DNA from: Scilla litardierei
Taxonomy: Eukaryota; Streptophyta; Magnoliopsida; Asparagales; Asparagaceae
Direction: 5' to 3'
Assembly (NCBI GenBank): GCA_030789695.1
Contig: JAULAV010002390.1
Span: 620,001-684,000, forward strand
DNA: 64,000 nucleotides
Below are positions 5,512-57,963 of this stretch, piece after piece. The notes under the pieces are model-generated. The model was not told the origin of the DNA and did no database searches. It worked only from the letters and a program-made list of their open reading frames with translations. Position 1 is the stretch's first letter; the number at the start of each line of letters is the position of its first letter. The position numbers were made by a program, and so were the translations under genes.

Positions 5512-5679
5512 GAAAAACAACAAACACCCATGAAGCGACAAATGGGAAAGAGACAGATAAAATAAGAAATAAAAATAAGAAAAATAAAAAGAAAAAGGAG
5601 AATGCGAAAATTATCGCGAGGTAGGGATGTGAGCTAGACACGAGGGTTCATGAGATCCTAAAATAACAAGCACGTTGCC

Positions 5680-5697
5680 TCCCCGGCAACGGCGCCA
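5680..5697 (-). other. Primer-binding site of element D (tRNA-Asp type)
   Basis: The minus strand reads TGGCGCCGTTGCCGGGGA, complementary to the 3' end of plant tRNA-Asp. It lies 6 nt inside the LTR edge, the same spacing as in element A (29440-29445). Confidence 0.9.
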
Positions 5698-5703
5698 TAA
5701 ACT

Positions 5704-7116
5704 TGACCGGCGCCTCGCTTCCGTCGCGACGACGCGGTGTCGTTTACCGCAAGTTTCACGGTTAGTGTAGGGTGCGGGAATATCGAACTCAGGGAGACGA
5801 GGTTGTGCTTGGGTCAGGTAGGACCTAAATCACCCCGAGGGGCGAGCTAGCCCGAATCGGTAGATGGTTGTCACGAAAGAAAATAAAAGCGTATGAACAA
5901 AAAGAAAGTAAACCCGGGACTTTGGTTTCCAACCCGACGAGAGACTCTCGCCGATACGGCCTACGGGTATGGATAGCGATCGGGATTAGGGTCTAATGGT
6001 GAGACGTTGCCTCTGAAAGTGGTACCGGCGTCCCATGGGCCCGATATTCCGGTCGGTGCCCAGGATGATACACCGGACTTCCCGGATTCGATCAGTGGGC
6101 ACTCCCGTGTCCATTAACACTGATCGATCCCGGGAGCACTAAGTCCGCAACGATATCTCCCAACGTCTCATCCTGCCGCTCCCGCGTGCTAGGACTTGGC
6201 GTCTACTCTAAAGGCGTGAGCTATGGCTAGGGAGTCAACCGCCAAGTTTATTCCCCCTTGGCTTGACGGTCAAAGGCGGTCTTTTTCCCGCCGATGACAA
6301 TGAAACGCCCCGCGTAACCGTTAGATTCCTACTCCCTATCGATTTCCTAACCCTATGGACGCATCGGGAAGAGCCCCCGAAGGGGTTTCCACCAAAATCC
6401 CAGATTTGGGAACTACTCACAAAAATTCATGAAAAAGCAATCTAAATGAAATTTAACCGTTGGAATCATAATCGGACAATTGCAATGCGGAAGTGATAGA
6501 GTAATAAAGACAATACTAAAATTTTAGAAAGATCTGAAAACTTACAAATAAATATCAGAAAACGGCGAGTTTTCACCCGATCACATGAACCGATCAGGTG
6601 AGTTCTTGAGCGACCGGTTGGATCTTGGAGCGGTCGGGTGAATCGGCCGGTTCGACGTCCGTGTCTTCAGCTCATCTTTCTCAGCTACAGATGAACCGAT
6701 CGGGTGAGAGTCACCCGATCGGTTGGCGCTTTGCTTCGAGAAAACAGAGAATAGCCCCCGCTGAACCGGTCTGTGAACCGGTCGGGTGACTTCGTTGTGA
6801 GATGCGGCAGAGACCGATTGGTGCACGCGTGCATCACCCGATCGGTTGGAGATAACCAACCGACCGGGTGAGGGGCTGAAAGATGAATACTTCGCCGTTT
6901 GACCCCCTGGATCACGTGTGACTTCTCCCGTTGCTCCGGGAACTTGGGATATCATCGTAAAAGGTCCCCTACGTGGTCGAACTCCTGCAATCATGGACAA
7001 ACAAAGAAAAGTGAAAGAAAACGGGAAAATATACGAAAACGAATAAGAGACGGCGGAAAACACGGAGAAACACAAAAGAAAACGTGCGTGAATATATAAA
7101 ATATAAGCGCACGTCA
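5704..7116 (-). mobile_element. 5' LTR of element D
   Basis: The inner edge at 5704 ends in CA on the minus strand, 6 nt from the PBS. The outer edge at about 7116 (TGACGTGCGC on the minus strand) is inferred, because the partner LTR is off the window and copia coding sequence begins just beyond. A palindrome array lies at 6575-6875 in the probable U3, and a GC-rich structured leader at 5760-6400. Near the PBS, the CTTGCGGTAAA stretch is shared with the LTR of element A. Confidence 0.65.
6575..6875. repeat. Palindrome array of element D (LTR copy), motif ACCGATCGGT
   Basis: About a dozen copies or variants of ACCGATCGGG/ACCGGTCGG occur here. The clearest pair is 14-bp arms at 6694-6707 and 6711-6724. 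Centre-to-centre steps measured by eye are mostly about 13 or about 19-22 bp. This is the same motif as in the internal array at 2210-2554. Confidence 0.8.
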
Positions 7117-8781
7117 GTACGCAAGGATAGTAAGATCCAGATGAGGGAAAAGATGAAGGCGTACTTGAAGCAAGACGAGCCAAAGAAAAAGGCGATTGCA
7201 TTCAAGGCCGCTCCATCTACCGATGATGAAGAATCGGAAAATGAATTGGACATGGAATCCATTGCCCGTATGGCAAGGAAGTTCAATCGATTCCTCCGAA
7301 TAGGTAAATCTTTGAATAAATCTAAAGTTAGTTCGACTAATGCTAATACTCCCGTGTGTTATAAATGCAACAAGCCAAGGACACATCAAACCGGATTGTC
7401 CTCTCTACAAACACAAGGAGAAGGGGAAGGCATCTAAGTACGACAAGTCGAGAAAGCGCAAGAAAGGGCTTGTTGGCACATTCACCGACTCCGAAGAGGA
7501 TTCTTCAAGTGGAGAGTCGGATGATGGAAGAGTGGAGAAAGCAAAAATTTGCTTCATGGCTAATGATGAGGCAAAAGGTCAAAAGTCCTCCTTCGATGAT
7601 AGCGAGGATGAAAGCGAGGATGGTGGCGAGGATGAAGGTGGAGAGCCTACTATGGAAGAAATGAGGTTAGCTAACCAAGAAATTTGGTCTAAATTTACTA
7701 AATTAATAGATAGATATAATAAGACCAAAGATGAACTTGTTAGCCTCCAAACCTCTCCTAAGTCTACCATCACCAACAATGACACCATTGTTGAGACACT
7801 CGTCAATGAGAAAGCAAGTTTGCTTACTCATAATGGCTTGTTGAGAAATGAGGTGAAGAACCTCAAATCTCAACTTGAGCATGTTCATTTTGAGAAATCG
7901 GATGAACACAAGATGGCGGATTTGACTTCTCAAAACTCAACCTTGAGTATTGAGAATAAGAATCTCAAATCTCGTGTTTATGCACTCACATCGCAAGTAT
8001 CTACTTTCGATGCTTCGATGCATTCTCTCAAAGAGAAGTATGAGTGCACGTTAGGCCGTATCAATGATTTCAATAAAGGTAAGGGCCATTTGGATAATAT
8101 CCTAAATGACTTACTTCCGGCCAAACACCACATTGGCTTGGGGTATAAGATGGGAGACTCATCCAAATCGTCTATAACCTTTGTTAGGCCTACTTCCGAC
8201 GCCTCAACGAGTGGGAGCAAACACCCCATTGGTAGTTCTCCTACCAATAGTGCTTCCACTTCGTACACACCCCCGATTGGAAAGAAACCCACTTTGGGTG
8301 GACCTCCAAAGAGGGGTCATGCATTTTTGTACTCACATGCTATGCCACGTAGGAACACACATCCTACTCCACCGGTTCATATTAATGATGATTTTTATGC
8401 TCCGCACCCACGAGCACGTGCAAACACTCATATGAGACACCCACATGCACGTAATCATGCTTATGCACATCCTAATGCTTATGTTCAACATCTCATCCAC
8501 ATGTGCATGCCTACTCTCATAATCATCCTCATGCATACACACATCATCATACTATTGCTAGATCCCATGCTCCGAGGCCACATGCGCCACATAGAAATCA
8601 AACTTTTGTGCATGCAACCACTAGGAAGAGGATTCCCAAAATGTACACTATTTGGGGTCCCAAGAACACTAGCGATGATGCTATGAATGTTTATGTGAAA
8701 TCATATATTAATGATGTTATTTTGAATGATGATTATGTTGGGAAGTCAAGTTCCTCTTGGACTTGGTTTCCGAAGGGTTAG
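7117..8781 (+). pseudogene. gag: Copia (SIRE-like) gag, 5'-truncated, two frameshifts
   Basis: Three frame segments can be read in order. 7117-7375 holds KAIAFKAAPSTDDEESENEL and the first half of the zinc knuckle (CYKCNK). From about 7376 to 8500 come the second half (GHIKPDC), a Lys-rich linker, an acidic stretch, a long coiled coil (about 7660-8080, EVKNLKSQLEHV) and a Ser/Thr/Pro region. From about 8503 to 8781 comes a His-rich tail ending WTWFPKG. The first frameshift, one extra base near 7374-7376, splits the CCHC knuckle; the second lies near 8500. Residues from about 8395 to 8590 are unusually rich in His and Asn. RNA binding by the knuckle is the family role. Confidence 0.8.
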
Positions 8782-9919: not shown

Positions 9920-11617
9920 TGTTGAGTATTGATTCCCCGGATTTGGTTTTGATGATGAGCAAACATAAATATCGTGTACTAACTATTTGTGAGCGCAGTT
10001 ATGGAGATCGTCGCCAAAAGAATACGTTCATCTCAAGCGACGTCTCAAGACTTCTCAATACGTGTGATCATGTGCCTGAAGCTTTGTTTAAGCTCAAGGA
10101 CCTTTATTGAAGTCAAGAATGAAGATTGAAGCTTATGAAGACGGATCATCAAGGTTTTTTTATAGTCTTCTAGCTTCTTTACTTAGAATGTTAAGCCTTG
10201 AGTAGGACTTACATTATAATCTTCATTTCGCTCATATCTTAGAGCTAGTATTATCTTAGAAGCCCATAGGAACTTTCCTGAAGCTTCGCGCTTCTTCCCT
10301 CGGCTTCCGGTGCATCTTAGTTGGTTCAAGTAGGAGAACCAACCGACTAGATGACGATCTAGTCGGTCGGCAATCCTTCATGAATCGACTAGATGCCCTT
10401 GCTCAATATTGGCCATCTACTGTTTACAGTTAGTCGGTCCAAGAAGGCTCACCGACCGACTAGATGACGATCTAGTCGGTTAGGAATCCTTCTCAGACCG
10501 ACTAGTTTTCATCTCCCAATTTCAGCCTGAGCCACTGTTTACACTTAGTCGGTCAAAGCACATCTGTCGACCGACTAGTTGAGAAACTAGTCGGTTAGAC
10601 ATTGTTCTTAGATCGACTAGTTAAACATGTTTCCAGCCTTTGAGTTTCATCTCTTAGTCGGTCAAAGAACACTGACCGACCGACTAGTTGTCCAACTAGT
10701 CGGTCGGCAAGTCTTCTTAGACCGACTAGTTCATATTGACCGTGAAATTTTCTATCTTGGCTGTCAACTCGTTAGTCGGTCCATGCTCATTGACCGACCG
10801 ACTAGATTGTGATCTAGTCGGTCGGGCATCCTTCTTTGACCGACTAACCAGCTTCAGAAAAGAGCCGTTGGGATCTTTTTGAACTCGTTTTTCCTTGCCC
10901 CTTTAAATAGAATCCTGATTCATTTCTTAAGGGGTTAAGCAATATATTAGAGATATTTTCAGATCAAAAGAGAAGAGCAATCAACTCTATTTCCAAGCTC
11001 TCTCTTCTCACAAGAATCTCTCCCTCAAGTTCTTGAGCCCTAAATCCTCAAGAGAGATTCTCTCCATTGTGAGCCATTCAAGCTAGAAGCTTGATTCTAG
11101 GTCACCATCTCCACCCTAGGCTTCCATTGCTGGTCATCTTCATGAAGCTAGGGTTTGGTGCCATCTTCCTCCACCAAAATCCCCCTTGCCCTAATTTGGT
11201 AAGAATACTCAAGGCATAGGTATTTTGTTGGTAAGCATTTCATTTCATTTACATTCGTTATTTGAATTGTATACTCTCGGTTGTGAGAGTTTGTGTGATC
11301 CCGGGTTGTGGGATTCACGGACATCGCTTGTAGTTAGTTTGCACTTGCAAGGTTTTTGCAAGTGGGCATATTGGAAATCTTGGGTTAGAGGTTTTCTAAC
11401 TCAAGTATCCGGAGGGGATCCGGATGGTTGGGACATAGGATCACCGGGAACAAGTCGGGGAGACTTGGGTGGATCCGAACCCATTAAACCATTTGTTTGT
11501 GTTTGCATTTATTCTTGTTGATCGTTATTATTTCGCATTGTTGTTTGTTAATTGCACGATAATTAGGAATAACTCTCCCTATTATTTAAAAGTACTATTC
11601 ACCCCCCCTCTAGTACA
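9920..11617 (+). mobile_element. 3' LTR of element E
   Basis: It starts TGTTGAGTATTG right after the polypurine tract. It contains an inverted-repeat array (10342-10822), a TATA-like TTTAAATAG near 10902, and a C-rich end (CACCCCCCCTCTAGTACA at about 11600-11617). No second E LTR is in the window, so the end is placed by the CA and by the start of reverse-oriented sequence. Confidence 0.7.
10342..10822. repeat. Inverted-repeat array of element E, motif ACCGACTAG / CTAGTCGGT
   Basis: There are five composite sites of 26 bp, each an 11-bp arm (ACCGACTAGWT type), 4 nt, then the reverse-complement arm. They start at 10342, 10455, 10570, 10679 and 10797, that is every 109-118 bp. Single copies of the half-site lie between them. 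The array ends about 80 bp before a TATA-like box. Confidence 0.9.
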
Positions 11618-27313: not shown

Positions 27314-27618
27314 ATTGCCCCCATCGGTCGGGTCGATCAGCTTCGGCCGGTTCGGCTCAGCCGATGTGACTTCCGCCGACTTTGACAGGCTCGCCAGTCG
27401 ATGCCGACTCATTTATTAGTCGTCATCATGAGTTGGCCCGTTCGATACTTTTAAGGCGCGGGCTCCGAAGCGACGTCGGTCCTCTGATGCTGCCACGTGT
27501 AGGTGCAAGCTTATCCCCACCGCTCGCGGGGTCGTCTTAAGTTGAGAAGCCGAGGGGTTCGTGAGCCGCCATCCCGTCGTTTTCTTCTTTGTGCTGATCC
27601 CTATTCTGCCTGAGCTCT
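27314..27618 (+). promoter_or_regulatory. Element B polypurine tract and severed promoter/leader of its antisense ORF
   Basis: 27314-27325 is the minus-strand polypurine tract (GATGGGGGCAAT). The rest aligns closely with 60770-61008 read in reverse in element C, which lies upstream of C's antisense ORF. It is thus the aORF promoter side. Element A now separates it by 13 kb from the aORF ATG at 40654. Confidence 0.7.
27614..27618. other. Left target-site duplication of element A
   Basis: GCTCT directly before the LTR start TGATCACTCC; it is repeated at 40644-40648. Confidence 0.95.
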
Positions 27619-27916
27619 TGATCACTCCTTATTTTACACCTTTTTTCCCGCATTTTTGCATGCCATTTAGATCGCCCAAATCATGTTTTTCACGATATAT
27701 CGACGATATTGCGATGCTTTTCACGATTTGTTGTTTTTGTCGCATTTCAGGTGATTTGGCGCGATTTGGAGTGATCTCGAGATGCGCTTACTCCAGAGGG
27801 TCACCGACGACCTCCCCGAGGGGTATTTTGCTGTTGGAGAGGAGCGGATGAAGAACGGACGTCGCAGGAGCGACGAGGAGGCCAAAATAAGCAGATTGGG
27901 CATGTTTAGTGTCCCA

Positions 27917-28294
27917 CTCGGCCGAGTGGAGGACCCACTCGGCCGACCAGCGAGACACCGCTCGGCCGACCAGATCAGACACGATTCCTATGTGCACTCG
28001 GCCGAGCGACGGAGACCACATCAGCCGAGTGAAGAGACCACGTCCGCCCGAGTGGCGCCCAGACGAAGCCCTTCATAAATCTCCAAGTTTCTGTTTTTCA
28101 GCTGCCTGAGCTTCAGAAGACCCACTCGGCCGAGTGGAGAATCCCGTCCGCCCGAGTACAATGAAGCCATCGGCCGAGTGACGACAACTCACTCAGCCGA
28201 GCCGCCCCCGAAGTAGAGACCCCTGAAGGCCCCGACTTACTGGAAAATTACAGGGTTTCTCACTCGGCCGAGCGACTTTTGTCACTCGGCCGAG
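27917..28294. repeat. Palindrome array of element A (5' LTR), motif CTCGGCCGAG
   Basis: Twelve decamers start at 27917, 27938, 27961, 27997, 28020, 28043, 28125, 28147, 28169, 28192, 28263 and 28285. Within clusters the steps are 21, 23, 23, 23, 22, 22, 23 and 22 bp; the gaps between clusters are 36, 82 and 71 bp. Most copies are the perfect palindrome or differ at one or two positions. The array ends about 85 bp before the TATA-like box. Confidence 0.95.
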
Positions 28295-28379
28295 TGCGAC
28301 GCGCTGCCTGTAGCGAAAATTGCGGAAAACAGGCTGCGCAGGGGTATTTTGGTCACAGTTTTTGGACGATTTTAGGGGG

Positions 28380-28386
28380 TATTTAA
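28380..28386 (+). promoter_or_regulatory. TATA-like box of element A LTR
   Basis: TATTTAA lies inside an inverted repeat GGGG...CCCC, downstream of the palindrome array. It is the likely start region for the genomic RNA, which would put the hairpins at 28783-29081 about 370-670 nt into the leader. Confidence 0.5.
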
Positions 28387-28782
28387 CCCCTGTTTTTACC
28401 CTAGTTTTAGAGAGCTTCTCCTTAGATTTTTTTTTGCAGCTTTTTAGATTAGCTTTTTAGTTTTATTCTTGAGATTGGAGAGGAGGCAAAGTTTGATTTT
28501 TGTTGGATTAATTGAAGAACTCCATTGGTTTGTCTTTCTCTTCCCCAAAAATTCTATTTTTATTGCATATCTCAATATTGTGATGAATTCTATTGCTTAT
28601 TTCATTGATTATTTTTGTGATCTTGCTATGAATTGTGAGTAGTCGCCACGTCTTGGGGCGTGGGGATGAACCCTACAAGCCCAACTTCATATTTGTGATG
28701 AATTAGTAGAAATTTTGCTAGAATCGATATCTAGGGATTAGATTGGGATCAATTTACTACGGTTAGCTAGGAGTTCATACCG

Positions 28783-29081
28783 ATCAGGATTTGCAAGAGA
28801 TTGGATCCCGATTCGATAGGAAACCCTAGAAATCCGAATTGGGTTGGAATCGAATTTCCGTAGTATCGGTTTGCAAGAGATTGGACCGATACTAGGGTTT
28901 CTGGTTGCAATTTCGTGCCAATACCCGTTTGCAAGAGATTGGACGGGTAGGAACTATCCCAATCTAGATCGTGAGCCGAGTTTGCAAGAGATTGGGCTCG
29001 GTGCGCGATTGGACGATGATGTTGACCCTAATGCTAGTTTTCCTAGGCTAGGGTTTGCAAGAGATTGGACCCAAACCTAGG
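28783..29081 (+). promoter_or_regulatory. Five constant-loop hairpins in the leader of element A
   Basis: The 14-mer TTGCAAGAGATTGG occurs at 28791, 28871, 28929, 28982 and 29055. Each copy is flanked by complementary arms of different sequence: ATCAGGAT/ATCCCGAT; TAGTATCGGT/ACCGATACTA; TACCCGT/ACGGGTA; GCCGAGT/GCTCGGT (with two G-U pairs); and GGGT/ACCC with an outer CCTAGG/CCTAGG. The loop is constant and the stems covary. The 3' LTR repeats the set at about 39987-40285. The location between promoter and PBS suggests a role in the RNA, such as packaging, dimerisation or translation; that is inference. Confidence 0.85.
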
Positions 29082-29445
29082 ATAGCTATAGACCGGCAAC
29101 AGCGCGAGAGCGTGAGCTTGGTTCTACATTCAGTTGCAACTAGTCCATCCAAAATCTCAATCTAGCAATTTTGAAACCGACGAACCACATTTATGAGATA
29201 CGGTGAGTAGCGGGGATTCCCCATTCCCTAGACGTTTTTTATTTGATTCGATATTTCCGCACTTTGTCTGACGATTGTGACAGGATCGCCAAAGGCAAAT
29301 CTTTCTTCTTGAATAGCCAGGGTGATTGGAACAAGCACGGTCATTCGTCCTCCCTGTGTTCGATATCCCGCTCGATGCTACACCGTGCACTTGCGGTAAA
29401 ACTACAACCGTTCTTTAGGGTTACGTCCCGGAGCGATCAAGTTTT

Positions 29446-29463
29446 TGGCGCCGTTGCCGGGGA
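29446..29463 (+). other. Primer-binding site of element A (tRNA-Asp type)
   Basis: TGGCGCCGTTGCCGGGGA, 6 nt after the LTR. Identical to the PBS of element D. Confidence 0.95.
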
Positions 29464-29579
29464 GGGCGTTTAGACGGTGTTCGTCATATACCACCCGGTT
29501 ACTTCTTCTTTCTCTCTTTCTTTACTTTCTTCTGTTCGCACATTCTCCTTGTATTTTGCATAAGGCCTTTGCAGGAAGA

Positions 29580-32500
29580 ATGGAGAATGCAATGTCAACA
29601 ATAGAACTCAGTCTGGAAGACTATGACTCCTTCACAGACCTCCTTAAGGAGCTTGTCGATGAGGTCCACGCTACCAGAGCTTTTGCTATCGACGTCAAGG
29701 ACCCCGCCGAACAACTGTTTGCTAGTTTCGTGATGGACCAGATCTCCCCGGAGGGGACTATCGGGGGCAATGTCAGAGTTGACGTGATCGACGACAAATT
29801 ATATTTCGAAAACGGTGGAACAAGTGTCGAGGATCGCCATACTCCGGGAGGATCTTCAGAGCAAACCAGCTTTCAGGGAGTTACACCCCATGACACTTAC
29901 TCTTGCTTCTATGAATCGTCTGATGTGTTTCAAGATTCCAGGGACGAACCGGAGCCGAGTGAAAGCTCTAACAAAGCTAGCGCAGAATCGGAGAGCGCTT
30001 ATTTCGATGCATCATCCTCACTAAGTAGTGAGTCTGACTCTTCACAAGAGAGCGCGCCACCTGAGCACGAGCTAGACCCGGATGGCAAGGAAGGAGCGAA
30101 ACTCATGCGAGCCGATGAAGTAGAAGGAGAGGCGCCTCTTCAGGTAGAACTTAAACAATTACCTCTGAATCTAAGGTACGCCTTTTTGGGTAACAAATTA
30201 ACTTTCCCGGTGATAGTAAACTCCCACCTCGCGCCAGACCAACTTGAAAAACTCCTAGACGTTCTTAGGAGCCATAAAGATGTCCTGGGATACACTATCT
30301 CCGATCTAAAAGGGATAAGCCCTAGGCTTTGCACGCATAAGATCCATTTGGAGGATACCGACGCCACCTCCATAGAGCCTCAAAGGCGGTTAAACCCGAA
30401 CATGAAGGAGGTGGTTAAAAAGGAAATCCTAAAATTGCTAGAAGCCGGTATAATCTATCCTATCTCAGACAGTAGATGGGTTAGCCCAGTTCATGTCGTC
30501 CCCAAGAAAGGGGGGATGACTGTCCTAAAAAATGAGAAAGGTGAGCCCATATCTACGCGCACCGTCACGGGATGGCGAATGTGCATTGACTATAGGAAAC
30601 TCAATAAAGCCACCCGAAAGGACCATTACCCATTGCCCTTCATTGATCAAATGCTTGAACGCCTCGCAAAACATAAATACTTTTGCTATCTAGACGGGTA
30701 TTCGGGATTCTTCCAAATCCCTTTGCACGAAGATGACCAAGAGAAGACAACTTTCACTTGCCCCTATGGCACCTATGCCTACCGTATGATGCCGTTTGGC
30801 CTTTGTAATGCTCCCGCCACCTTTCAGAGGTGTATGAAATCCATATTTTCCGATTACATTGAAAATATTATGGAAGTCTTTATGGATGATTTCTCGGTTT
30901 ATGGAAGTGAGTTTGACTCTTGTTTGGAAAATCTTACTAAAGTCCTAAAAAGGTGCCAACAAAACAATCTCACTCTCAATTGGGAGAAGTGTCACTTCAT
31001 GGTCACGGAAGGTATAGTTCTCGGACACCTAGTCTCTTCGAGAGGGATTGAGGTAGATAAAGCAAAGATTGAGGTAAACGAGAAACTCCCTCCTCCTATT
31101 AATGTCAAAGGCATTAGAGGCTTTCTTGGTCACGCGGGGTTTTACCGCCGCTTCATCAAGGATTTCGCCTCGATTGCCCGACCACTTACCTCTTTGCTCG
31201 CTAAAGATATTCCTTTTATTTTTTCAGGTGAATGCTTACAAGCCTTCAACGCCTTGAAAGAAGCACTAGTCTCCGCGCCCATCATACAACCGCCGGATTG
31301 GAGCCTTCCTTTTAAGCTGATGTGCGATGCTAGCGACCAAGCCATTGGAGCGGTATTGGGACAAAGAAAAGATAAGAAGCTTCATGCGATATACTATGCG
31401 AGCAAGACATTGGATGACGCACAGAAAAACTACACAACTACCGAAAAGGAGCTTCTAGCGGTCGTCTATTCCATAGAGAAATTTCGCTCCTACCTCCTCG
31501 GTTCCAAGGTGATTGTCCACACCGACCATGCGGCATTGAAGTATCTTTTAAACAAGAAGGAGGCCAAACCTCGGTTGATTAGGTGGATACTCTTGTTGCA
31601 AGAATTCGACTTAGAGATCAGAGATAAGAAGGGTACGGACAATGTCGTGGCGGATCATTTATCTAGGCTCATGCGCGACAAGGAGGACGAGAGTTTGCCT
31701 ATCGACGACACATTCGTGGATGAGAGGCTATATGCCATAAGGACCGGTGAAGTACCTTGGTACGCGGACTTCGTCAACCACTTGACTTGTGGAATCAAAC
31801 CGCATGGGATGTCTACGCAACAAAAGAGGATATTTCTGCATGAGGTCCGTAGCTAATTTTGGGAAGATCCCTACCTTTTCAAGATATGCAAAGATAGTGT
31901 CATTCATAGGTGTGTTTCTAAAGAGGAGGCGACATCCATCATTTTGCATTGCCACGGTCTACCATGCGGAGGACATCATGCCGCCTCTAAAACAACCGCT
32001 AAGATCTTGCAGAGCGGATTCTTCTGGCAAACAATGTTTAGGGACACCCACGCTTTTGTGAAGGGGTGCGATAGATGCCAACAGACCGGGAATATCTCCA
32101 AGCGCAATGAGATGCCGATGAGACCCATCCAAGAAATCGAGCTTTTTGATTGTTGGGGAGTAGACTTCATGGGGCCATTTCCGTCGAGCAATGGTAACAA
32201 ATACATCCTATTGGCCGTTGACTATGTCTCCAAATGGGTGGAAGCAATTGCCACCCCTACTAATGATGCAAGGGTCGTCTCCAAGTTCTTTAAGCAAAAT
32301 ATCTTCCCACGCTTCAGAGTGCATCGTACCTTGATAAGCGACGGGGGAAGCCACTTCATAGAGAACAAGTTTGAAGCCATGCTAAAGAAGTACGGGGTAA
32401 ATCATAGAGTTGGCATGGCATATCACACCCAGACAAGCGGCCAAGTGGAAGTCTCAAATAGAGAAATTAAGCAAATTCTCGAAAAGACGGTGGATCGATC

Positions 32501-33455
32501 TAGAAAGGATTGGTCAATGAAGCTAAATGATGCTCTATGGGCATATCGCACGGCCTTTCGCACTCCCATAGGCACCACACCGTTCCGGCTCGTTTATGGG
32601 AAAGCTTGCCACTTACCCATAGAGTTGGAGCACCGCGCGTATTGGGCCATCAAAACCTTTAATTATGATTACAAGAGTGCGGCGGTGAGGCGACTCTTGG
32701 ACATCAACGAGCTTGATGGGATAAGAAGAGACGCCTACGAAAGCTCAAGAATTTACAAAGAAAGGACCAAGATTTTCCACGATGCCCGCATAACCGTCAC
32801 GGACTTCAAAGTAGGAGACAAGGTCTTGCTCTATAATTCCCGGCTCCGACTATTTCCCGGTAAGTTGAGGTCACGTTGGTCCGGACCTTTCACCATCAAG
32901 CATATACAACCGGGAGGAGCTTTCGAGTTGGAGAGCAAGGACGGTTCCACGTTCAAAGTAAATGGTCAGAGGCTCAAACACTATTCCGAGGGAGTCCCGA
33001 CGGGCGAAACCAATAGAATATATTTGCTTAAGGGACGGCCGGATGATCTTTCATACCTCCTTGATGAGGTAATTGAGGAGGCGATCCCCCACTCTATTGG
33101 CGCTCTATTCGATGAAGATTTCGAGGAAGGCCCGGATTTAGGCCAAAATGAGAAGAAAGATGATTCCCACGACCTCTCCGCTGAAGATGATGAAGGCGAC
33201 GCTGATGTCGCAAGGATTCGAGAGCTCTGTAAGCTCTCGAAATTAAAGTCTCCAAAGAAAGCTCCTCCGGTACGGAAATCGGCATCACCGGTGAAGCCGT
33301 TGACCGGAGCAAATGCTAGCTTGGGGGAGCCTCCCCCCAAGACTATTCGAGATGGGAGACCACCGAGGGAGAACACGCCGCCACGTCCAAATCCAAGCGT
33401 TCTCCCCGAAAAGTTTGATGGGTGCATCTCATATGCACCAAACATCCCACATTGA
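29580..33455 (+). pseudogene. pol: Athila-type pol: RT, RNase H, integrase; one in-frame stop, no gag or protease
   Basis: One frame from ATG 29580 to 33455 would give about 1,290 residues. It is interrupted only by TAA at 31854-31856, and the same frame continues after it ([12 protein letters not shown]). The first 190 residues or so are acidic and Ser-rich, with no gag or protease motif. RT follows ([26 protein letters not shown] at 30879-30893), then RNase H ([25 protein letters not shown]). Integrase has the zinc-binding [11 protein letters not shown] and CDRCQQTG, the catalytic core with VDFMGPF and SDGGSHF, and the downstream [10 protein letters not shown] charged tail ends at 33455. 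The lone stop lies in the linker between RNase H and integrase. The frame is open upstream to 29445, but that part overlaps the PBS. Confidence 0.93.
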
Positions 33456-33786
33456 TTGAAAATTATAGGGGGTCTAGCTCACGACCTTAAACGAGCGCTT
33501 GTCAGGAGGCAACCCGACGGTTTTTGCTTTATTTTTACTTTTTCTTTATTTTCGTTTTAGAAATTTTTAGTGTTTTGAGTCGTTCGCCCAAAAATTTTGT
33601 GATAACGGGTCCTATTTTTCTTGACAGGAGAGGAGATAGGTAGATCCATCATGAGGAGGATGAACACGGCGACGAGGAGCGCCCCAAGAAGGCGCTCGAC
33701 GCTTAGGAGTAAGATGAAATCGACTGGATGAAGAAAGACGGAGTTTAGAGCCCAAACGAAGACAAACAGCAGAACACAAGGCTCAC

Positions 33787-34108
33787 TCGGCCGAGCATAC
33801 TAGTCACTCGGCCGAGTACAGAAGTTCGTCCGGCCGAGCCGCTCACGAACGAGGGAAGTCTGCTGTACCCAACTCTCTGTTTATTTTCCTGATTTCAATA
33901 TAACTGCTACTCGGCCAGTATATATTCCCACTCGGCCGAGTAAAACGGATACCCTCCTAGGGCGAGTCATGCCGAGTAGCTTGAGCCACTTGGCCGAATG
34001 GACTTACTCCACTCGGCCGAGGCTGGTAAGGCCACTTGGCCGAAGCGTAGGCGAGGAGGAAATTTCCATTGACCTCGCTCGGCCGAGTGACCACGTCACT
34101 CGGCCGAG
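33787..34108. repeat. Palindrome array of element A (internal copy), motif CTCGGCCGAG
   Basis: Ten or more CTCGGCCGAG decamers or near copies, mostly 21-23 bp apart within clusters. The last two form an inverted composite: arm CTCGGCCGAGTGA at 34078-34090, 5 nt, and its reverse complement at 34096-34108. This is the same motif as in the LTR at 27917-28294. Confidence 0.9.
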
Positions 34109-34121
34109 TCGTAACTTTTAT

Positions 34122-34128
34122 TATATAA
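34122..34128 (+). promoter_or_regulatory. TATA box for ORF3 of element A
   Basis: TATATAA starts 14 bp after the last palindrome. The equivalent box in element D is at 2189-2196. It implies a separate internal transcript for ORF3. Confidence 0.55.
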
Positions 34129-34675
34129 GGGCCGAGGGGGGCGCGATTTTCGAAACGCAAAACCCAATCGCACCCCGACTCTTCAGCTCCCCTCGCCCGA
34201 CTCCCCTCGCTCGCGCCCCCACTCGCCCGACCGGCCACCTCGCGCCGCCGCTCGGCCCGCCACCGCCGGTCGAGCACCCGCCGACGCCTCGCCCGAGTCG
34301 CCGCCGGCGGCCGCCGCTCCGATCGCCTCCGGTACCCCCTATTTCGCCTTTTTCGCCTCTTTTTGTGTATTTTTCGAGGATCCATGTGCTTAACGAACCC
34401 CTAACCCAAATCAATTTCTATATTTATCCGTTATACCCCTAATGCTCCATACGTTTTGAATATTACCCGCTGATATCTCCATTTCACGCGCAGGTTGTTT
34501 TTGGGAGCTTAGGGGAGCCCAGGGGAGCTTCTTGGGACTGATTCGGGCTTCGCGGAGGCGCTGTCTTCGCACGCTTCCATTGCTTAGCACTCGCGGCGTG
34601 TCGGGGGTACACTCTTTCCTTTATTTTGCACACGCCGCACTTTTTACACTTTTTTGGCGCGCGCTCGGGGCTGAT

Positions 34676-36865
34676 ATGCCGCCCCGGACACGGCCGCGGA
34701 CGAGGAGACCTTCCGCCAAGCGGAAGCGGTCGGATGATGTCGGCCCATCCCACGAGGTGGAAGGCTCTCCTCCTCCTTCTCCCACACACGCCGTCCACCC
34801 AGCACAGCCTGCAGGCCCCGCACACCCCGCACAGCCTGCAGCGACCGCACAGCCCGCACAGCCTCTCCCTGCCGCTCCACAGCCACCACCACCGGCTCCA
34901 CTGGTCGGGCCGCTCAGGATTACGTTCCGAGATGACGCACACCGCGCCGTCTTCGAGCGTATCTCCCAGCGCTCGATCGTTCCCTCCAGGTTTGCACACC
35001 TTGCTGACCTAGGACGCCTGGGGGTACTAGAGGGGATGCTCACGTTGTACGACAACATGGGCTGGCGAGATTTCTTCCAGGTGTCGGCGGACACGTTCAC
35101 CCGCCCGACACTTGAGGTTCTGAGTTCGATCGCCCGGACCGACGAGGGATGCTCGTTTCGGTTCATGGATCGAGAGTGCCAGGTCACTCTCGATATGATG
35201 AGAGCGTTTTTCTCGTGGCCCGCTGTCCCCGGAGCCGATCGCGGTTACGGCCCCACCCATATCCCCCCACCTTCCTTCAACGCCGGTGCCTTCTGGGCCC
35301 GGATTACGGGTCTTCACGCTGCCTTTGACCCTAGTAGGGCCAAGGCCTCGGCCATTGTCCATCCCTGCCTCCGTATTGCTCAGCGCCTTATGGTGACGAC
35401 CTTTTTGGCCAGATATGAGCCGGGCACGATGTCTACGCCAGAGCTCTACATGCTCTACGCGATGACACGTCCCAGAGCTCTATCTAGGGATGGCGATGAG
35501 CTTGTCCCTGCCGTCGTGATCGATATCGCGGCATGGTTTTTAGACCGCATAATCGTATCGGTGGGCGCTCGCTCACCGATATGCTGCGGCGTCCTGATAA
35601 CCTTGCTTGCCCTTATGACCGGCGAGGACTTCCCTGACGACTTGCGACGAGTCCCGGGCCCCACTTCTCTGTCGATAGATGTTATGGCCCGGATGAAGAT
35701 GCTTCGTCCGCACAGTGAGCGTCACTGGGTCTGGTTGCACGGCCCTTACGGGGCCGATTACATGATTCTTCCGAGCCCAGCTCGGACTCAGATTGCACCA
35801 GCCCAGGCAGACTGGCTCCCTGCGATGGATGTTCTCATCCCCGCTGCTTACGTGCTCGAGGCCGAGGAGGCCGAGGAGGCCGAGCAGGCCCACGCTGCCC
35901 ACGTTGCCCACGCTGCCCCCGCAGACCCTGTTGCACACCCTGCCGAGCCTGCTGCCCCTGTTGACCCCGTGGCCCCTCAGCCTATACCTGATGTTTCCGT
36001 TGCTCCTGACACCTCTGTCAGTGTCGGGAGTACCTTAGCTGAGACCACCCCCACTGCTTCCGAGGCTGTCACCACCACTCCCACCGCCACCACCGGCCCT
36101 CTTCCCGTCGAGCCTCTTTGCTCCGCACTCCCCGAGCACCCACCGACCTTTGTTGAGAGTGGAGAGCCCTCGTTTGCCACGGTCGTGGAGACCATGGCTA
36201 GCATGGTCTCCGCTGGGGTTGCACCTTTTGGACCACACACTTCCACCCCAGCGGTAGTCACCTCTGTCTCCACCCCTGCTGTATTTTCCGAGAGCGTCAT
36301 GGCGTCTGTCCACACTTCTGTGCCACTGACCTCTCTGGCCGCCTCGCTGCCACTTTTGCATTCTTCTTTCGTTGCTACTACCTCCACTTCTCACCAGTCG
36401 GTGCCCCGGCCTCACACTGAGGCCAGGCCCACATTTGCGAGCGCAGCACCTTTCGTACCCTTCCCCGCTGAGCCCGTCACATACGCGACTCGAGTACGCC
36501 AGCCACGCCCTGCACAGCCCCGACCGGTGCGTCCCTCTGCACCACCTCCCCCTGACACTGTACTTCAGAGCATTCGTGCTCTAGAGGGGGCGGTGAGTGG
36601 CCTCAGAGGCGACCTTAGGACCCTGTCCTCCACCGTCTCTGCGATGGCTGGGCGCTTTGACCTGCTCCCCCAGATTCACTACTGTCTTACTCAGGTCCTG
36701 GAGCGTCTCCCGCGCGTACCCACACCCACCCAGCAGGTTCCCGCCCACACTTCCACACACACTCGACCTGCTACCACTCCCACACCCACACCCGCTCATC
36801 GGCCTGTCCAGCCACCACCACCACTTCCGCCTCAGGACGGAGACGGTGCAGCACCACCTTCCTAG
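34676..36865 (+). CDS. Athila ORF3 protein (putative plant transposon domain), intact
   Basis: Start ATG 34676 (MPPRTRPRTRRPSAKRKR) gives 729 residues; the frame is open further upstream without a better ATG. The order is: a basic, nuclear-localisation-like N-terminus (1-25); a Pro/Ala-rich stretch with repeated PAQPA (about 35-75); a conserved domain at about 80-420 (RITFRDDAHRAVFERIS, RAKASAIVHPCLRIAQR, STPELYMLYAMTR); Glu/Ala repeats; a long Pro/Ser/Thr-rich low-complexity region (about 430-640); and a helical segment (SIRALEGAVSGLRGDL to QVLERLPR, about 625-690). The domain is homologous to ORF3 of element D. The molecular role is unknown. Its own promoter with a palindrome array makes a DNA-binding or anti-silencing role worth testing, but that is inference. 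Confidence 0.8.
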   Translation: MPPRTRPRTRRPSAKRKRSDDVGPSHEVEGSPPPSPTHAVHPAQPAGPAHPAQPAATAQPAQPLPAAPQPPPPAPLVGPLRITFRDDAHRAVFERISQRSIVPSRFAHLADLGRLGVLEGMLTLYDNMGWRDFFQVSADTFTRPTLEVLSSIARTDEGCSFRFMDRECQVTLDMMRAFFSWPAVPGADRGYGPTHIPPPSFNAGAFWARITGLHAAFDPSRAKASAIVHPCLRIAQRLMVTTFLARYEPGTMSTPELYMLYAMTRPRALSRDGDELVPAVVIDIAAWFLDRIIVSVGARSPICCGVLITLLALMTGEDFPDDLRRVPGPTSLSIDVMARMKMLRPHSERHWVWLHGPYGADYMILPSPARTQIAPAQADWLPAMDVLIPAAYVLEAEEAEEAEQAHAAHVAHAAPADPVAHPAEPAAPVDPVAPQPIPDVSVAPDTSVSVGSTLAETTPTASEAVTTTPTATTGPLPVEPLCSALPEHPPTFVESGEPSFATVVETMASMVSAGVAPFGPHTSTPAVVTSVSTPAVFSESVMASVHTSVPLTSLAASLPLLHSSFVATTSTSHQSVPRPHTEARPTFASAAPFVPFPAEPVTYATRVRQPRPAQPRPVRPSAPPPPDTVLQSIRALEGAVSGLRGDLRTLSSTVSAMAGRFDLLPQIHYCLTQVLERLPRVPTPTQQVPAHTSTHTRPATTPTPTPAHRPVQPPPPLPPQDGDGAAPPS

Positions 36866-38824
36866 GCACCCTTGATGCCATCGATTATTCCTGCTGTTGT
36901 GCTGCACGTTTCTGCTGGGTCCTGTTGCACTTTTGACCACCCCCTCCCCTCACTTATTTTGGGATTCTCATGTCGACCATATATTTATATATCTTTTCTG
37001 GGAGAGAGGGAGCGTTTTTGGTGACACTCTTATATATCTATATCACTTCTATCTGTGCATGCATCATGTCCGCATCATATTTTCATGTCTTTATCTTTCT
37101 TTTTATTTTTCTTTTCATCATGCATGCATCCTCACCTTCCCCTCATATTACTTGTCTCTCGGTGTGCCACACTTTGCATATTGAGGACACTGTGCCATTT
37201 AGCTTGGGGGAGTGAGTTCTCACGTTCTTTTTCGATTTGCCACCTTTATTTTTAGTTTTTTTTCACACCATTTTTCGCTTTTGCACTTATTTTTCATCAT
37301 TTTTCTTTTATTTTGCCATGCATCATGCTTTTCTTATTTTTTCTTCGTGTGTCGCATTGTAAATAGTTTTATTTTCCCTTTATCTTTATTTCTTTTTCAT
37401 CTCATGCTGGAGATGACTTTTCTATGATGATGATGACGTTGGATTTAGCTTACTCTATATGCATGCTATATTTGTCATGTCTTAGACTTTATTTCTGATA
37501 TCATATGCTATGACTTGCCTTGCATCTAGAGATAGTAACCCACACTTTTGCCACATGAAATTGGATGAAATTCTATTATTAGCTGAGTCTGAATATTCAT
37601 ATGTATGCTATCACAGAAAACACACCAAGATTCACGCATTGAATGCTTATATCTGGAGTACTGATTTCTTTTTCCTATATCACTTCTATATGCATGAATT
37701 GTACACTTCACTTCAGGATGATTGAATGATGTTAGCTATGATAAATCTGGATTAGTTAGCTTTTTTGTGATCGAAACTGAGTAGATTAGATTACCCTGCT
37801 GAAGTTGTCGTGCATGTCTTATAGAGTGAACCGAGAGATATATTCATTTCTTTCTCCACAAATCTTGAACATCATTTCTCTACTTTTAAAATCATTGGTG
37901 AATCTCCCCTTAGCGATTCTACTATATGGCATTTCCCCCGCTATTAACTCCTAGCTCCAAATTTCTTATTCGAAAAAAAGAAGAAGGAGAAAAAAGAGAA
38001 AATATTCATGTATATCATTTTCTCTCTTTGAGTTGGGATCGTTGTGTATATATGCTTTTGCATCACAAAAAAAAGAGAAAAAAAAGAGAGAAAAGAGGAA
38101 AAATCCTCAATAAAAGATCCCATCTCACTTTCTTACTTTCTCTTCTCTCTTCATCGCTTTTGGAGCTATATAAAAATGGGGATGTGAATATTTTTTTATG
38201 TCACCACGCTTATAGATAAGCTTGGGGGATGGGATCCATTGATGTGTGAGAGAGTGACTACTTGACGTTGCACGACAACCTAGGCTAAGTAATATTCTAT
38301 ACTCGGTGAGATTATTTCTAGCTTTACGAAATCCAGAAATCTAAGCCTAGCGTTCATTTCATGAAATCCATACTTTTCTATTATCTCTCTATTCTATTGT
38401 GTGATACTCTTATACTCCTGATAGAAAGCATTCAATTGAAAAGTGTGTGATCTGTGATTTGTATACCGCTTTAAATGATTCAGACGATGTTAATTTTAAA
38501 ATTATTCCGTTTTTCATGATTATATCGTTGTTCGTGGGTTTTCCATTTCTATTTGCACTATTATACTATGATATCAAAATAAAATCTTTTGACATGAGTT
38601 TTTCACTCGGTGCATGCTATATGAGTAAGTGAAACCCCCGTCCTGAGAAAATGATCTAGTAGCTTACCTCTTCGCTTCTTTCTCTCTTCTTTATTTTCAT
38701 TTCATTTTCCATTCTTCTCCGTTTTCCATTTTTCATTTTTCGCCATTTTCGTTTTCCAATTCCACTGGGTTCGCCATTTACTTATCTTCCTCGAGGACAA
38801 GTAAGAGGCAAGCTTGGGGGATTT
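36866..38824 (+). other. Element A 3' region with three AGCTTGGGGGA tracts
   Basis: T-rich noncoding DNA. The purine-rich AGCTTGGGGGA occurs at about 37200, 38219 and 38812. The last, directly before the 3' LTR, is the working polypurine tract; the others are duplicates. The short ORFs here are chance frames. Confidence 0.75.
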
Positions 38825-40643
38825 TGATCACTCCTTATTTTACACCTTTTTTCCCTCATTTTTGCATGCCATTTAGATCGCCCAAATCATGTTTTTCACG
38901 ATATATTGACGATATTGCGATGCTTTTCACGATTTGTTGTTTTTGTCGCATTTCAGGTGATTTGGCGCGATTTGGAGTGATCTCGAGATGCGCTTACTCC
39001 AGAGGGTCACCGACGACCTCCCCGAGGGGTATTTTGCTGTTGGAGAGGAGCGGAAGAAGAACGGACGTCGCAGGAGCGACGAGGAGGCCAAAATAAGCAG
39101 ATTGGGCATGTTTAGTGTCCCACTCGGCCGAGTGGAGGACCCACTCGGCCGACCAGCGAGACACCGCTCGGCCGACCAGATCAGACACAATTCCTATGTG
39201 CACTCGGCCGAACGACGGAGACCACATCGGCCGAGTGAAGAGACCACGTCCGCCCGAGTGGCGCCCAGACGAAGCCCTTCAAAAATCTACAAGTTTCTGT
39301 TTTTCGGCTGCCTGAGCTTCAGAAGACCCACTCGGCCGAGTGGAGAATCCCATCCGCCCGAGTACAATGAAGCCATCGGCCGAGTGATGACAACTCACTC
39401 GGCCGAGCCGCCCCCGAAGTAGAGACCCCTGAAGGCCTCGACTTACTGGAAAATTACAGGGTTTCTCACTCGGCCGAGCGACTTTTGTCACTCGGCCGAG
39501 TGCGACGCGCTGCCTGTAGCGAAAATTGCGGAAAACAGGCTGCGCAGGGGTATTTTGGTCACAGTTTTTGGACGATTTTGGGGGGTATTTAACCCCTGTT
39601 TTATCCTAGTTTTAGAGAGCTTCTCCTTAGATTTTTTTTGCAGCTTTTTAGATTAGCTTTTTAGTTTTATTCTTGAGATTGGAGAGGCGGCAAAGTTTGA
39701 TTTTTGTTGGATTAATTGAAGAACTCCATTGGTTTGTCTTTCTCTTCCCCAAAAATTCTATTTTTATTGCATATCTCAATATTGTGATGAATTCTATTGC
39801 TTATTTCATTGATTATTTTTGTGATCTTGCTATGAATTGTGAGTAGTCGCCACGTCTTGGGGCGTGGGGATGAACCCTACAAGCCCAACTTCATATTTGT
39901 GATGAATTAGTAGAAATTTTGCTAGAATCGATATCTAGGGATTAGATTGGGATCAATTTACTACGGTTAGCTAGGAGTTCATACCGATCGGGATTTGCAA
40001 GAGATTGGATCCCGATTCGATAGGAAACCCTAGAAATCTGAATTGGGTTGGAATCGAATTTCCGTAGTATCGGTTTGCAAGAAATTGGACCGATACTAGG
40101 GTTTCCGGTTGCAATTCCGTGCCAATACTCGTTTGCAAGAGATTGGACGGGTAGGAACTATCCCAATCTAGATCGCGAGCCGAGTTTGCAAGAGATTGGG
40201 CTCGGTGCGCGATTGGACGATGATGTTGACCCTAATGCTAGTTTTCCTAGGCTAGGGTTTGCAAGAGACTGGACCCAAACCTAGGATAGCTATAGACCGG
40301 CAACAGCGCGAGAGCGTGAGCTTGGTTCTACATTCAGTTGCAACTAGTCCATCCAAAATCTCAATCTAGCAATTTTGAAACCGACGAACCACATTTATGA
40401 GATACGGTGAGTAGCGGGGATTCCCCATTCCCTAGACGTTTTTTATTTGATTCGATATTTCCGCACTTTGTCTGACGATTGTGACAGGATCGCCAAAGGC
40501 AAATCTTTCTTCTTGAATAGCCAGTGTGATTGGAACAAGCACGGTCATTCGTCCTCCCTGTGTTCGATATCCCGCTCGCTGCTACACCGTGCACTTGCGG
40601 TAAAACTACAACCGTTCTTTAGGGTTACGTCCCGGAGCGATTA
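38825..40643 (+). mobile_element. 3' LTR of element A (1819 bp)
   Basis: It matches 27619-29439 throughout, with scattered substitutions and a few 1-bp indels. It ends TTA where the 5' LTR ends TCA. The palindrome array is at 39123-39500, and the five hairpins are at about 39987-40285. In hairpin 1 the stem is fully paired here (ATCGGGAT). In hairpin 3 a C-to-T change leaves a G-U pair. Two loops carry single changes. Its orientation points into the aORF of element B. Confidence 0.97.
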
Positions 40644-40648
40644 GCTCT
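40644..40648. other. Right target-site duplication of element A
   Basis: GCTCT, identical to 27614-27618. The aORF ATG of element B follows at 40654. Confidence 0.95.
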
Positions 40649-47868: not shown

Positions 47869-48643
47869 GTTGGGAATACACAAAAGCATTGAAATTAGGA
47901 ATAGCCTTTTAATATTAGTTATGAAAAAAATGTTGTGCATACACACAATCTCATCTTGGGAATGAACGCGAGCTGTGAAAGAATGAACGCGGGAGATGCT
48001 GCCAACTCATTGATCAGCGTTGCAAAACCCTGTAAAATTTCGATATCATCTGCTGATATTTCAGGGGAAACTAATAATTATTGATGTTTGTTTAAAATTA
48101 GTGGGCCCAAGATTTTTAAATGAACAGTTTCCCAAGGGCACTGGTTATATGTATATGAAGCAATCGTCGAAGGCGCCAGCTAAATTTTTTAACGCTAATT
48201 TGTTGTTCCGTGCCTGAGGCACCCGCGCCGAAATTGTTGTTTTACATCGAATGAGTAGTTCTACACCGAAGGCATCCACGTCGAATTTGGTGTTCTGTGT
48301 CGAAGGCGCATGCGCTGAATTTGTTGTTCCGCGCTAAAGGCGCCCACGCCATTTTTAACGCTGATTTGTTGTTCCGCGCCTAAGGCACCCGCGTCGAAAT
48401 TATTGTTTTACATCGAATTTGTTGCTCTGCGCTAAAAGCACCCACATCGAATTTGGTGTTCTGTGTCGAAGGCGCATGCTTTGAATTTGTTGTTCCACGC
48501 CGAAGGCGCCTGTACCGCTAAATATTGTAAACTAATTTGTTTTTCTTTTAAATTTTGGCTTTGAAAAAAAAATTTCGGGGAACAAAGATTTCGCATGGGA
48601 AAATCTTAAATGAACCGTGCCCGCGGGCACGGGTTATGACTAG
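47869..48643 (+). mobile_element. Helitron 3' end, plus orientation, 5'-truncated by element B
   Basis: It ends with the 18-bp perfect palindrome CCGTGCCCGCGGGCACGG (48615-48632), then GTTATGA and CTAG at 48640-48643, followed by T. This is the hairpin-plus-CTRR terminus of plant Helitrons. The body at 48180-48500 holds degenerate repeats of about 45-50 bp (AATTTGTTGTTCCGYGCC...). There is no coding sequence. Confidence 0.75.
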
Positions 48644-48663
48644 TGTGTATATATATATATACA

Positions 48664-49125
48664 CTAGTCATAACCCGTGCCCGCGGGCACGGTTCATTTA
48701 ACATTTCCCCCGCGAAATATTTGTTCCCCAAAAAATTATTTCCACAACCAAAAATTAAAATAACAACAAATTAGCCTAAAAATATTTAGCGACACGGGTG
48801 CCTGTGACGTGGAACATTAAATTCAGCGTAGTCGTCTTCGACATGAAACAACAAATTCGACGCGAGCACTTTTGGCGAGAAACAACAAATTCGACGTCGA
48901 CACCTTCAGCGTGAAACAACAAATTAACGTAGAACTATAAATTCGGTGCGGACGCCTTCAGCATGGAACAACAAATTAGCGTAGGCACGGGCGCCTTCGA
49001 CCATAACACGCTCAGGCACGGTTGATTTAAGATATCACCTCAAAATATTTGTTCTCCCCAAAAATTATTCCCCCTCCAAAATTTAAACGAACACAAATTT
49101 AGCTTCGACGCGGGGACCGATTGAT
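48664..49125 (-). mobile_element. Helitron 3' end of the same family, minus orientation
   Basis: The mirror image of the previous element: CTAG at 48664-48667, the same 18-bp palindrome at 48675-48692, then related AACAACAAATT repeats on the minus strand to about 49125. The two termini face each other across 20 bp of TG/TA repeat. Confidence 0.7.
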
Positions 49126-57099: not shown

Positions 57100-57334
57100 G
57101 CGGGCGACGTCTCTCCCCCCGGAAGCTGCCTAGTATGAGGGAGTTATCTAAGTTTACATCTCTCTGTCTAGCTTCATTTCTTTTTTTTCCATTTCCTCCA
57201 AATGTACCGGTCCGGCAGGACTCTTGAGAGTACAAATGCATTCCTTTTGTTATCTTCATTTAAAACCCCGACGGAGTTGACATGACACCAATAGCACGAA
57301 AGGTTGGGGACCGCCGCCTCACTGGAGGAGGAAG
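57100..57334 (+). other. Element C spacer after gag
   Basis: AT-rich, noncoding. Pol should begin here in an autonomous relative, and is absent. Confidence 0.6.
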
Positions 57335-57963
57335 AGGAGCTTTGCCCTCGCCGACCGACTCCAGCGCTTATAAGTCTGGGGGCAATTCCCCCAGCAGGCA
57401 CGGACGTCGACCGGTCCTAAGCCGAGGAGCTTTGCCCTCGCCGACCGACTCCAGCGCTCATAAGTCTGGGGGCAATTCCCCCAGCAGGCACGGACGCCGA
57501 CCGGTCCTAGCCGAGGAGCTTTGCCCTCGCCGACCGACACCAGCGCCCATAAGTCTGGGGGCAATTCCCCCAGCAGGCACGGACGTCGACCGGTCCTAAG
57601 CCGAGGAGCTTTGCCCTCGCCGACCGACTCCAGCGCACATAAGTCTGGGGGCAATTCCCCCAGCAGGCACGGACGCCGACCGGTCCTAAGCCGAGGAGCT
57701 TTGCCCTCGCCGACCGACTCCAGCGCTCATAAGTCTGGGGGCAATTCCCCCAGCAAGCACGGACGCCGACCGGTCCTAAGCCGAGGAGCTTTGCCCTCGC
57801 CGACCGACACCAGCGCTCATAAGTCTGGGGGCAATTCCCCCAGCAGGCACGGACGCCGACCGGTCCTAAGCCGAGGAGCTCTGCCCTCGCTGACCGACTC
57901 CTGCGCCCCTAAGTCTGGGGAGAATCCCCCCAGCCAACGCCAGCTTCGTCCATTCCTAAGCCG
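57335..57963 (+). repeat. 90-bp tandem repeat, seven copies
   Basis: Units begin with AGGAGCTTTGCCCTCG at 57335, 57425, 57514, 57604, 57694, 57784 and 57874. The unit is 90 bp (one is 89). Each has a hairpin CTGGGGG, 5 nt, CCCCCAG. The GGGGGCAATT inside it equals the core of the element's polypurine tract (60998-61007). The last copy is the most divergent. Long frames on both strands through the repeat follow from the 90-bp period and are probably not genes. Confidence 0.95.

Follow-up and report, generated by a model that had tools for sequence, protein, structure and literature searches.

An array of five predicted hairpins with a constant tip and covarying stems in the LTR leader of an Athila-type plant retrotransposon

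The packaging signal of embecoviruses is described as an invariant apical loop on covarying stems. Coronavirus SL5 carries repeated UUYYGU loops, and in some deltacoronaviruses one loop motif recurs on five stems set close together; for both, a packaging role is called unproven in the review (PMC12911879). In MMTV, Gag is reported to bind a purine loop as well as the primer binding site (PBS) (PMC8096270). Among plant LTR retrotransposons, Sireviruses are reported to have palindromic motifs in two places, the LTR and the beginning of the env gene (PMC2829016), and the Gag-less BARE2 has been reported to be packaged in BARE1 particles (PMC3735527). The selection of genomic RNA by plant LTR retrotransposons is little known.

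Here we describe five hairpins in the leader of element A, a retrotransposon found in 64,000 nucleotides of Scilla litardierei DNA (the window, meaning the whole stretch that was analysed). The array has the feature of repeated-loop RNA packaging signals, an identical loop on several neighbouring stems. As in the coronavirus signals, neighbouring stem-loops share a loop motif, and as in embecoviruses the stems covary; unlike those signals, which belong to an unrelated virus and have unrelated sequences, the array consists of five 15-nt words in a plant LTR leader and is known from sequence (PMC12911879). The MMTV signal is similar in its leader position near the PBS and in having a stem-loop with purine-rich bases, but it has one purine loop, in a stem-loop that also holds the dimer start, whereas element A has five copies to which Gag would bind (PMC8096270). 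The CaMV and RTBV leaders share with element A a long plant leader with uORFs and are described as having a purine-rich packaging signal atop a stem-loop, although theirs is one large stem-loop and in element A a repeated tip sits on five small hairpins (PMC5902531). The Sirevirus motifs are likewise repeated and non-coding within a plant LTR. However, those palindromes are described as lying upstream of the TATA box, whereas the array lies downstream of position 28380 and TTTGCAAGAGATTGG is not palindromic as a whole, so that the resemblance belongs to the U3 repeats of element A and not to its hairpins (PMC2829016). BARE, likewise an LTR element of plants, uses different RNAs for translation and for packaging, but it belongs to the Copia superfamily, derives its RNA pools from two promoters and has no hairpin array mentioned in the available part of the paper (PMC3735527). 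In the open-licence full-text literature we found no such hairpin array in any retrotransposon and nothing joining Athila, LTR, leader and stem-loop, and the array sequence itself had no match in papers of that collection.

Element A and its leader

Element A occupies positions 27619-40643 of the plus strand, with GCTCT target site duplications at both sides (27614..27618 and 40644..40648). LTR alignment placed the 5′ LTR (TGATCACTCC...GGAGCGATCA, ends set by eye) at 27619..29439 and the 3′ LTR at 38825..40643, both on the plus strand; they are 1.82 kb long and 98.46% identical over 1820 nt. A plus-strand PBS, TGGCGCCGTTGCCGGGGA, lies at 29446..29463, and we take it to be of the tRNA-Asp type. 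Diaspora/Calypso, of the Athila lineage of soybean, have a PBS of this same type, and the text available on them does not mention a hairpin array (PMC1142308).

Pfam searches identified RT and RNase H in a plus-strand open frame at 29445..31856, integrase zinc-binding and core domains in a second frame at 31944..33455 and, downstream of integrase, a frame of the ATHILA ORF-1 family at 34532..36865. The domain order is therefore RT, RNase H, integrase and then the ATHILA-family frame. In Brassica protein P0109, the only one checked, the ATHILA match likewise followed the integrase zinc domain, and the best protein relatives of element A were plant proteins where named (among the best 120 of 7955 listed). 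On its domains, PBS and relatives, element A is classed as a plant Athila-clade Ty3/Gypsy retrotransposon. Pfam gave no match to a Gag or protease domain in the first frame, six-frame translation of 29438-38823 contained no CCHC knuckle (C-X2-C-X4-H-X4-C), and first-frame residues 46-245 had no homologue among 1285 candidates. Thus, this copy of element A looks defective or non-autonomous. The start of the first frame (29581-30300) holds about 200 residues without a detectable homologue, in the part of the element in which one would expect gag and protease.

A TATA-like box of putative function (TATTTAA, 28380..28386, plus strand) predicts an RNA start near 28410. Counted from this presumed start to the ATG at 29581, the leader is about 1.17 kb long and contains nine upstream ATGs, three of them in one linker of the array; the upstream frames span 2-32 codons, the longest uORF being 32 aa. 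The array would lie about 370-670 nt into this leader and is upstream of the PBS, so its original placement between TATA and PBS agrees with both landmarks. A pararetrovirus shunt leader has a short uORF that stops shortly ahead of one large stem-loop; the leader of element A has nine upstream ATGs, but its hairpins are five separate ones.

Putative splice-like sites also occur on the plus strand of the leader. Donor-like GTGAGTAG is found both upstream of the array (28635..28642; 7/9 to consensus, near the top of 63 GT sites) and downstream of it (29203..29210; 8/9, the best of the 63), and an acceptor-like AG (CTTTGCAG) at 29573..29574 precedes the ATG at 29581. By a crude score this AG was second best of 17, the better one lying inside the ORF. 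For Diaspora, too, the LTR has predicted donors and the start of gag has predicted acceptors close by; the same paper remarks that, as of 2005, reports of an intron ahead of gag were lacking (PMC1142308). Splicing from 28635 to 29574, which would remove the array together with the PBS, stays a conjecture because the scoring is crude, a better donor lies downstream, a better acceptor lies in the ORF, and the equivalent donor-like site of a second element in the window, element B, matches at 6/9.

The U3 region of element A carries palindromes of type CACTCGGCCGAGTG. Palindromes of the U3 type appear again at 33784-34129 (CACTCGGCCGAG), and after them comes a good TATA box, TATATAAG, at 34122; this stretch lies a short way upstream of the ATHILA-family frame at 34532 and resembles an internal promoter laid out in the manner of the U3. 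Three different sequences in the window have similarly placed arrays of short palindromes, at 27914-28297 (plus strand), 6573-6871 (minus strand) and 10317-10869 (plus strand). The palindrome type differs in each, being CACTCGGCCGAGTG, TCACCCGATCGGTT and ACCGACTAG...CTAGTCGGT, respectively, and in two of the three (elements A and B) the array is upstream of a TATA-like box.

The constant tip and its covarying stems

The original prediction placed five copies of the 14-mer TTGCAAGAGATTGG in the 5′ LTR, and all were exact at 28791, 28871, 28929, 28982 and 29055. Five more were found in the 3′ LTR, at 39995, 40075 (one mismatch), 40133, 40186 and 40259 (one mismatch). As the T ahead of the 14-mer is also invariant, the constant word is 15 nt rather than 14. 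All five hairpins of the 5′ LTR are on the plus strand. Hairpin 1 (28783..28812, tip 28791-28804) has eight stem positions with one A-C mismatch; hairpin 2 (28861..28894, tip 28871-28884) has a 10 bp stem and hairpin 3 (28922..28949, tip 28929-28942) a 7 bp stem. Hairpin 4 (28975..29002, tip 28982-28995) has seven pairs, two of them G-U, to which folding adds a longer outer stem. Hairpin 5 (29041..29082, tip 29055-29068) has 4 bp, a 3x3 internal loop and an outer stem of 7 bp; this outer stem had been given as 6 bp, whereas the arm lengths of 4-10 bp stood. Sequence and folding place the same array on the plus strand of the 3′ LTR at 39987..40286. The tips are spaced at 80, 58, 53 and 73 nt with no fixed period, and the closing arms are complementary within each copy and different between copies.

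Among the five 5′ LTR copies, eight of nine stem pairs were changed on both sides. The covariation score was 0.577, as compared with 0.199 (sd 0.057) after shuffling, and was reached in none of 500 shuffles. Pairing was present in 90.8% of 65 alignment cells, including 39 of the 45 stem cells, and fell to 46-48% when the partner was slid by one column. When all ten copies were used the score was 0.538, again reached by 0 of 500 shuffles; 9/500 matched the count of pairs changed on both sides and 123/500 matched the count of pair types. The ten-copy set adds little since it consists of five pairs of near-identical copies. This is covariation among paralogous hairpins of one element, not among orthologous hairpins, and because the tip is constant between hairpins it backs the stems only and not the inner fold of the tip.

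Plain tandem duplication was rejected as an explanation of the array, as the 10-nt arms of different copies agreed at just 1-6 positions. This result, together with the shuffling, bears out the earlier description of a constant tip on covarying stems rather than a simple tandem duplication. Some flank similarity was left between hairpins 2 and 3 and between hairpins 2 and 5 (p ~0.003 each, uncorrected for ten comparisons), which fits an old duplication of hairpins followed by paired changes in their stems.

Comparison of the two LTRs identified 26 substitutions. Eight of these were inside the 326-nt array, and all eight were transitions; two of them fell in tips, one each in hairpins 2 and 5. 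Differences in hairpins 1 and 3 had been offered as evidence of selected pairing. The changes themselves are real (28786 A in the 5′ LTR versus 39990 G in the 3′ LTR for hairpin 1; 28925 C versus 40129 T for hairpin 3), but both LTRs were copied from one template and were identical when inserted, so that these differences postdate insertion and are silent on selection. As judged from their distribution, the substitutions in the array show no constraint since insertion. The selection visible in the array is an older one, seen in the five-fold divergence of the stems.

Several controls addressed the role of chance. With up to two mismatches, the 14-mer had 10 matches against 0.72 expected, and none of 100 shuffles reached 10. 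Watson-Crick pairs were counted in nine closing positions and numbered 7, 9, 7, 6 and 7 for hairpins 1-5 of the 5′ LTR. When chance copies of the 14-mer were taken from viral contigs (at least 120 stretches, with a single copy each in the 80 rows listed), 1 of 118 copies in phage contigs reached six of nine closing pairs and none had more. Six closing pairs were reached at 1.5% of random window sites, and 0 of 1,000,000 five-site draws from the window or from the LTR matched the observed pairing sum. We also scanned for arrays, taken as a 10-mer of any sequence that recurs within 600 nt on three or more different closing stems. Only the 5′ and 3′ arrays of element A were reported in the window, and none was found in 127 background loci (1,129,525 bases, mostly viral and not plant) or in 20 block-shuffled windows. 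A covariance model built from the ten hairpins found those ten only in the window, the next matches having E values of 0.61 (window position 11347) and 2.4 (L121, a locus described below). Chance hairpins are ruled out by the phage copies, the five-site draws and the array scan.

Two further candidates were rejected. A coding cause is unlikely because the tips alternate between two reading frames (start mod 3 = 0,2,0,2,0), and no known RNA family was recognised, as Rfam 15 gave no matches in the window at the gathering score and none with E up to 1 for 28380-29600. Elsewhere in element A there was no 8- or 9-mer complementary to the tip. Comparison of the tip with 28380-29600 gave one complementary 7-mer (AGATTGG with CCAATCT at 28959), a match that may arise by chance.

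Predicted tip fold and strand

When the five hairpins of the 5′ LTR were folded as isolated 48-nt pieces, all five gave one common predicted tip fold, in which the variable stem is followed by a U-G pair, a UG bulge, CAA paired with UUG, and a GAGA tetraloop. The advantage of this fold over an open 14-nt loop was 3.3 kcal/mol for four of the five 34-nt pieces; for hairpin 4 a different fold was better. Hairpins 2 to 5 kept the common tip when the 326 nt of the 5′ LTR array were folded together, with hairpin 1 displaced by other pairings, and hairpin 3 was displaced in 74-nt folds of both LTRs. The copy of hairpin 5 in the 3′ LTR breaks the inner tip fold. What had been called a 14-nt loop thus stands as a constant tip but not as an open loop; in the predicted folds it probably forms a bulged mini-hairpin capped by a GNRA tetraloop, GAGA.

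The fold energy of 28770-29095 was low (z -3.4 for the 5′ LTR and -4.8 for the 3′ LTR), and that of the neighbouring sequence was near zero on either side (z 0.1 and 0.56). However, the minus strand of the array folds as low (z -4.75), so that fold energy cannot pick the strand. Wobble pairs in the nine closing positions comprised three G-U versus two A-C in the 5′ LTR and four versus one in the 3′ LTR; this lean to the plus strand is a weak sign of plus-strand structure at the RNA level. With energy equal on both strands, the strand assignment rests on the direction of transcription and the weak excess of G-U.

Possible roles of the array

Because the tip is constant and the stems are free to vary, some partner would be expected to read the tip as presented on a stem. 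We tentatively interpret the array as a multi-copy cis-acting RNA signal, most likely one that selects genomic RNA for packaging, an interpretation to which we give somewhat less than an even chance. Gag is the first candidate for the partner since this is an LTR element and the leader lies next to the PBS. The tip would be recognised by a single RNA-binding protein, most likely a Gag supplied by an autonomous relative; five spaced tips would bind several Gag molecules together and mark the full-length RNA for packaging, and the presence of five copies suggests cooperative or multivalent binding. The lack of Gag in element A is no objection, given that Gag-less BARE2 is packaged by BARE1. In a weaker extension of this mechanism, the donor upstream of the array and the acceptor before the ORF would allow the array and the PBS to be spliced out together, which would leave the signal on unspliced RNA only. 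The packaging interpretation is supported by the covariation of the stems, the invariant tip, the common tip fold, the chance controls and the position upstream of the PBS, and by analogy with the coronavirus and MMTV signals, which are close to it in form. Counting against it, related element B has no repeated tip, one element of the family was seen, and hairpins 1, 3 and 4 give way to other folds at some lengths; the splicing step is opposed by the best donor, which lies downstream of the array and would leave the hairpins in spliced RNA. The broadest form of the model, which we consider unlikely as a whole, is that a plant endogenous-retrovirus-like lineage packages its genomic RNA by a modular multivalent code, in which the stems are interchangeable and the five bulged GNRA tips identical, array and PBS share a leader intron and would both be carried by unspliced RNA alone, and Gag can be recruited in trans for Gag-less copies.

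An invariant tip on free stems would be read by one partner in any case, and this could be a host RNA-binding protein (an export, stability, splicing or silencing factor) bound to the repeated tip. That element A has no recognisable Gag of its own is in keeping with such a protein, but no known motif was matched, with zero matches in Rfam, and we consider a host partner doubtful. The hairpins could instead act on translation, with no role in packaging, by slowing or diverting scanning ribosomes through a shunt, through internal entry or with the help of a host protein bound to them, and so lower or time translation of the ORF. The leader of about 1.17 kb with its nine upstream ATGs would suit this mechanism, and plant pararetroviruses are described as using structured leaders with uORFs (PMC5902531). 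Roadblocks, however, require stable stems and not five identical tips, the single large stem of a shunt is absent from the fold, and the upstream frames reach just 32 aa, with a third of the ATGs confined to one array linker. We consider translation control unlikely.

A purely DNA-level feature, either a repeated protein site set in inverted repeats or a set of decayed duplications without an RNA role, would account for the equal folding of the minus strand and for the flank similarity between some copies. It would not call for self-matching arms that differ between copies, and neither the irregular spacing of the tips nor the G-U pairs in the stems speak for it; we regard it as very improbable. 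The poorest prospect of all is a set of dimer start sites, in which the UUGCAA of the tips, a 6-nt palindrome of which each RNA holds five, would kiss between two genomes. The energy of the self-duplex (-7.1) was equalled or beaten by 466 of 2000 loop shuffles, and the predicted tip fold hides half of UUGCAA; dimerisation through the loop, one of the roles originally proposed, is thus not favoured.

Should the array prove to be a packaging signal, it would be a compact and repeated one that can be read from sequence alone, which would make it searchable across plant genomes and testable with a 35-nt RNA. Moreover, five natural stem variants on one tip separate what the partner would read, the tip, from its holder, the stem.

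Element B, which lacks the repeated tip, is a second Athila-like element (5678-7150, minus strand) with the same tRNA-Asp PBS near 5696. It matches element A at the LTR end (29332-29465 versus 5811-5678; 74% over 142 columns) and has U3 palindromes of its own. Its leader contains a long hairpin with arms at 6080-6097 and 6118-6135, and the two halves of this leader are partly structured (z -2.6 and -0.6). The ten-hairpin covariance model found nothing there at E up to 10. The repeated tip would thus be a feature of the family or subfamily of element A and not of all elements with this PBS. The body of element B runs left towards the edge of the window.

Relatives were also sought in other collections. 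Two copies of the 14-mer 30-60 nt apart were found in neither viral nor genome contigs, the 18-mer GTTTGCAAGAGATTGGAC had no match in public collections, and a search for three 10-mers gave four stretches, all tandem repeats in viral contigs and none scored as an array. The element A RT protein had no match in viral contigs, and an RT alignment gave nine candidates there, none of which was confirmed. The PBS matched one phage-like contig among the viral contigs, and the element A leader had no match in plasmids. In genome contigs, the RT alignment identified two loci, L121 and L122, which are plant-type Athila sequences in bacterial assemblies; both begin at gag without an LTR and are therefore uninformative on the leader. 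The two are near-identical (99.7%) despite lying in assemblies of the unrelated Solirubrobacter and Geminicoccus (both CPCC strains), and shared contamination is the probable explanation.

The window contains two other repeats. A tandem array at 57240-57958 has a 90-nt repeat in seven register copies of 62-100% identity, and a 244-nt inverted repeat without a spacer at 48410-48897 is 73% complementary and could form a long hairpin.
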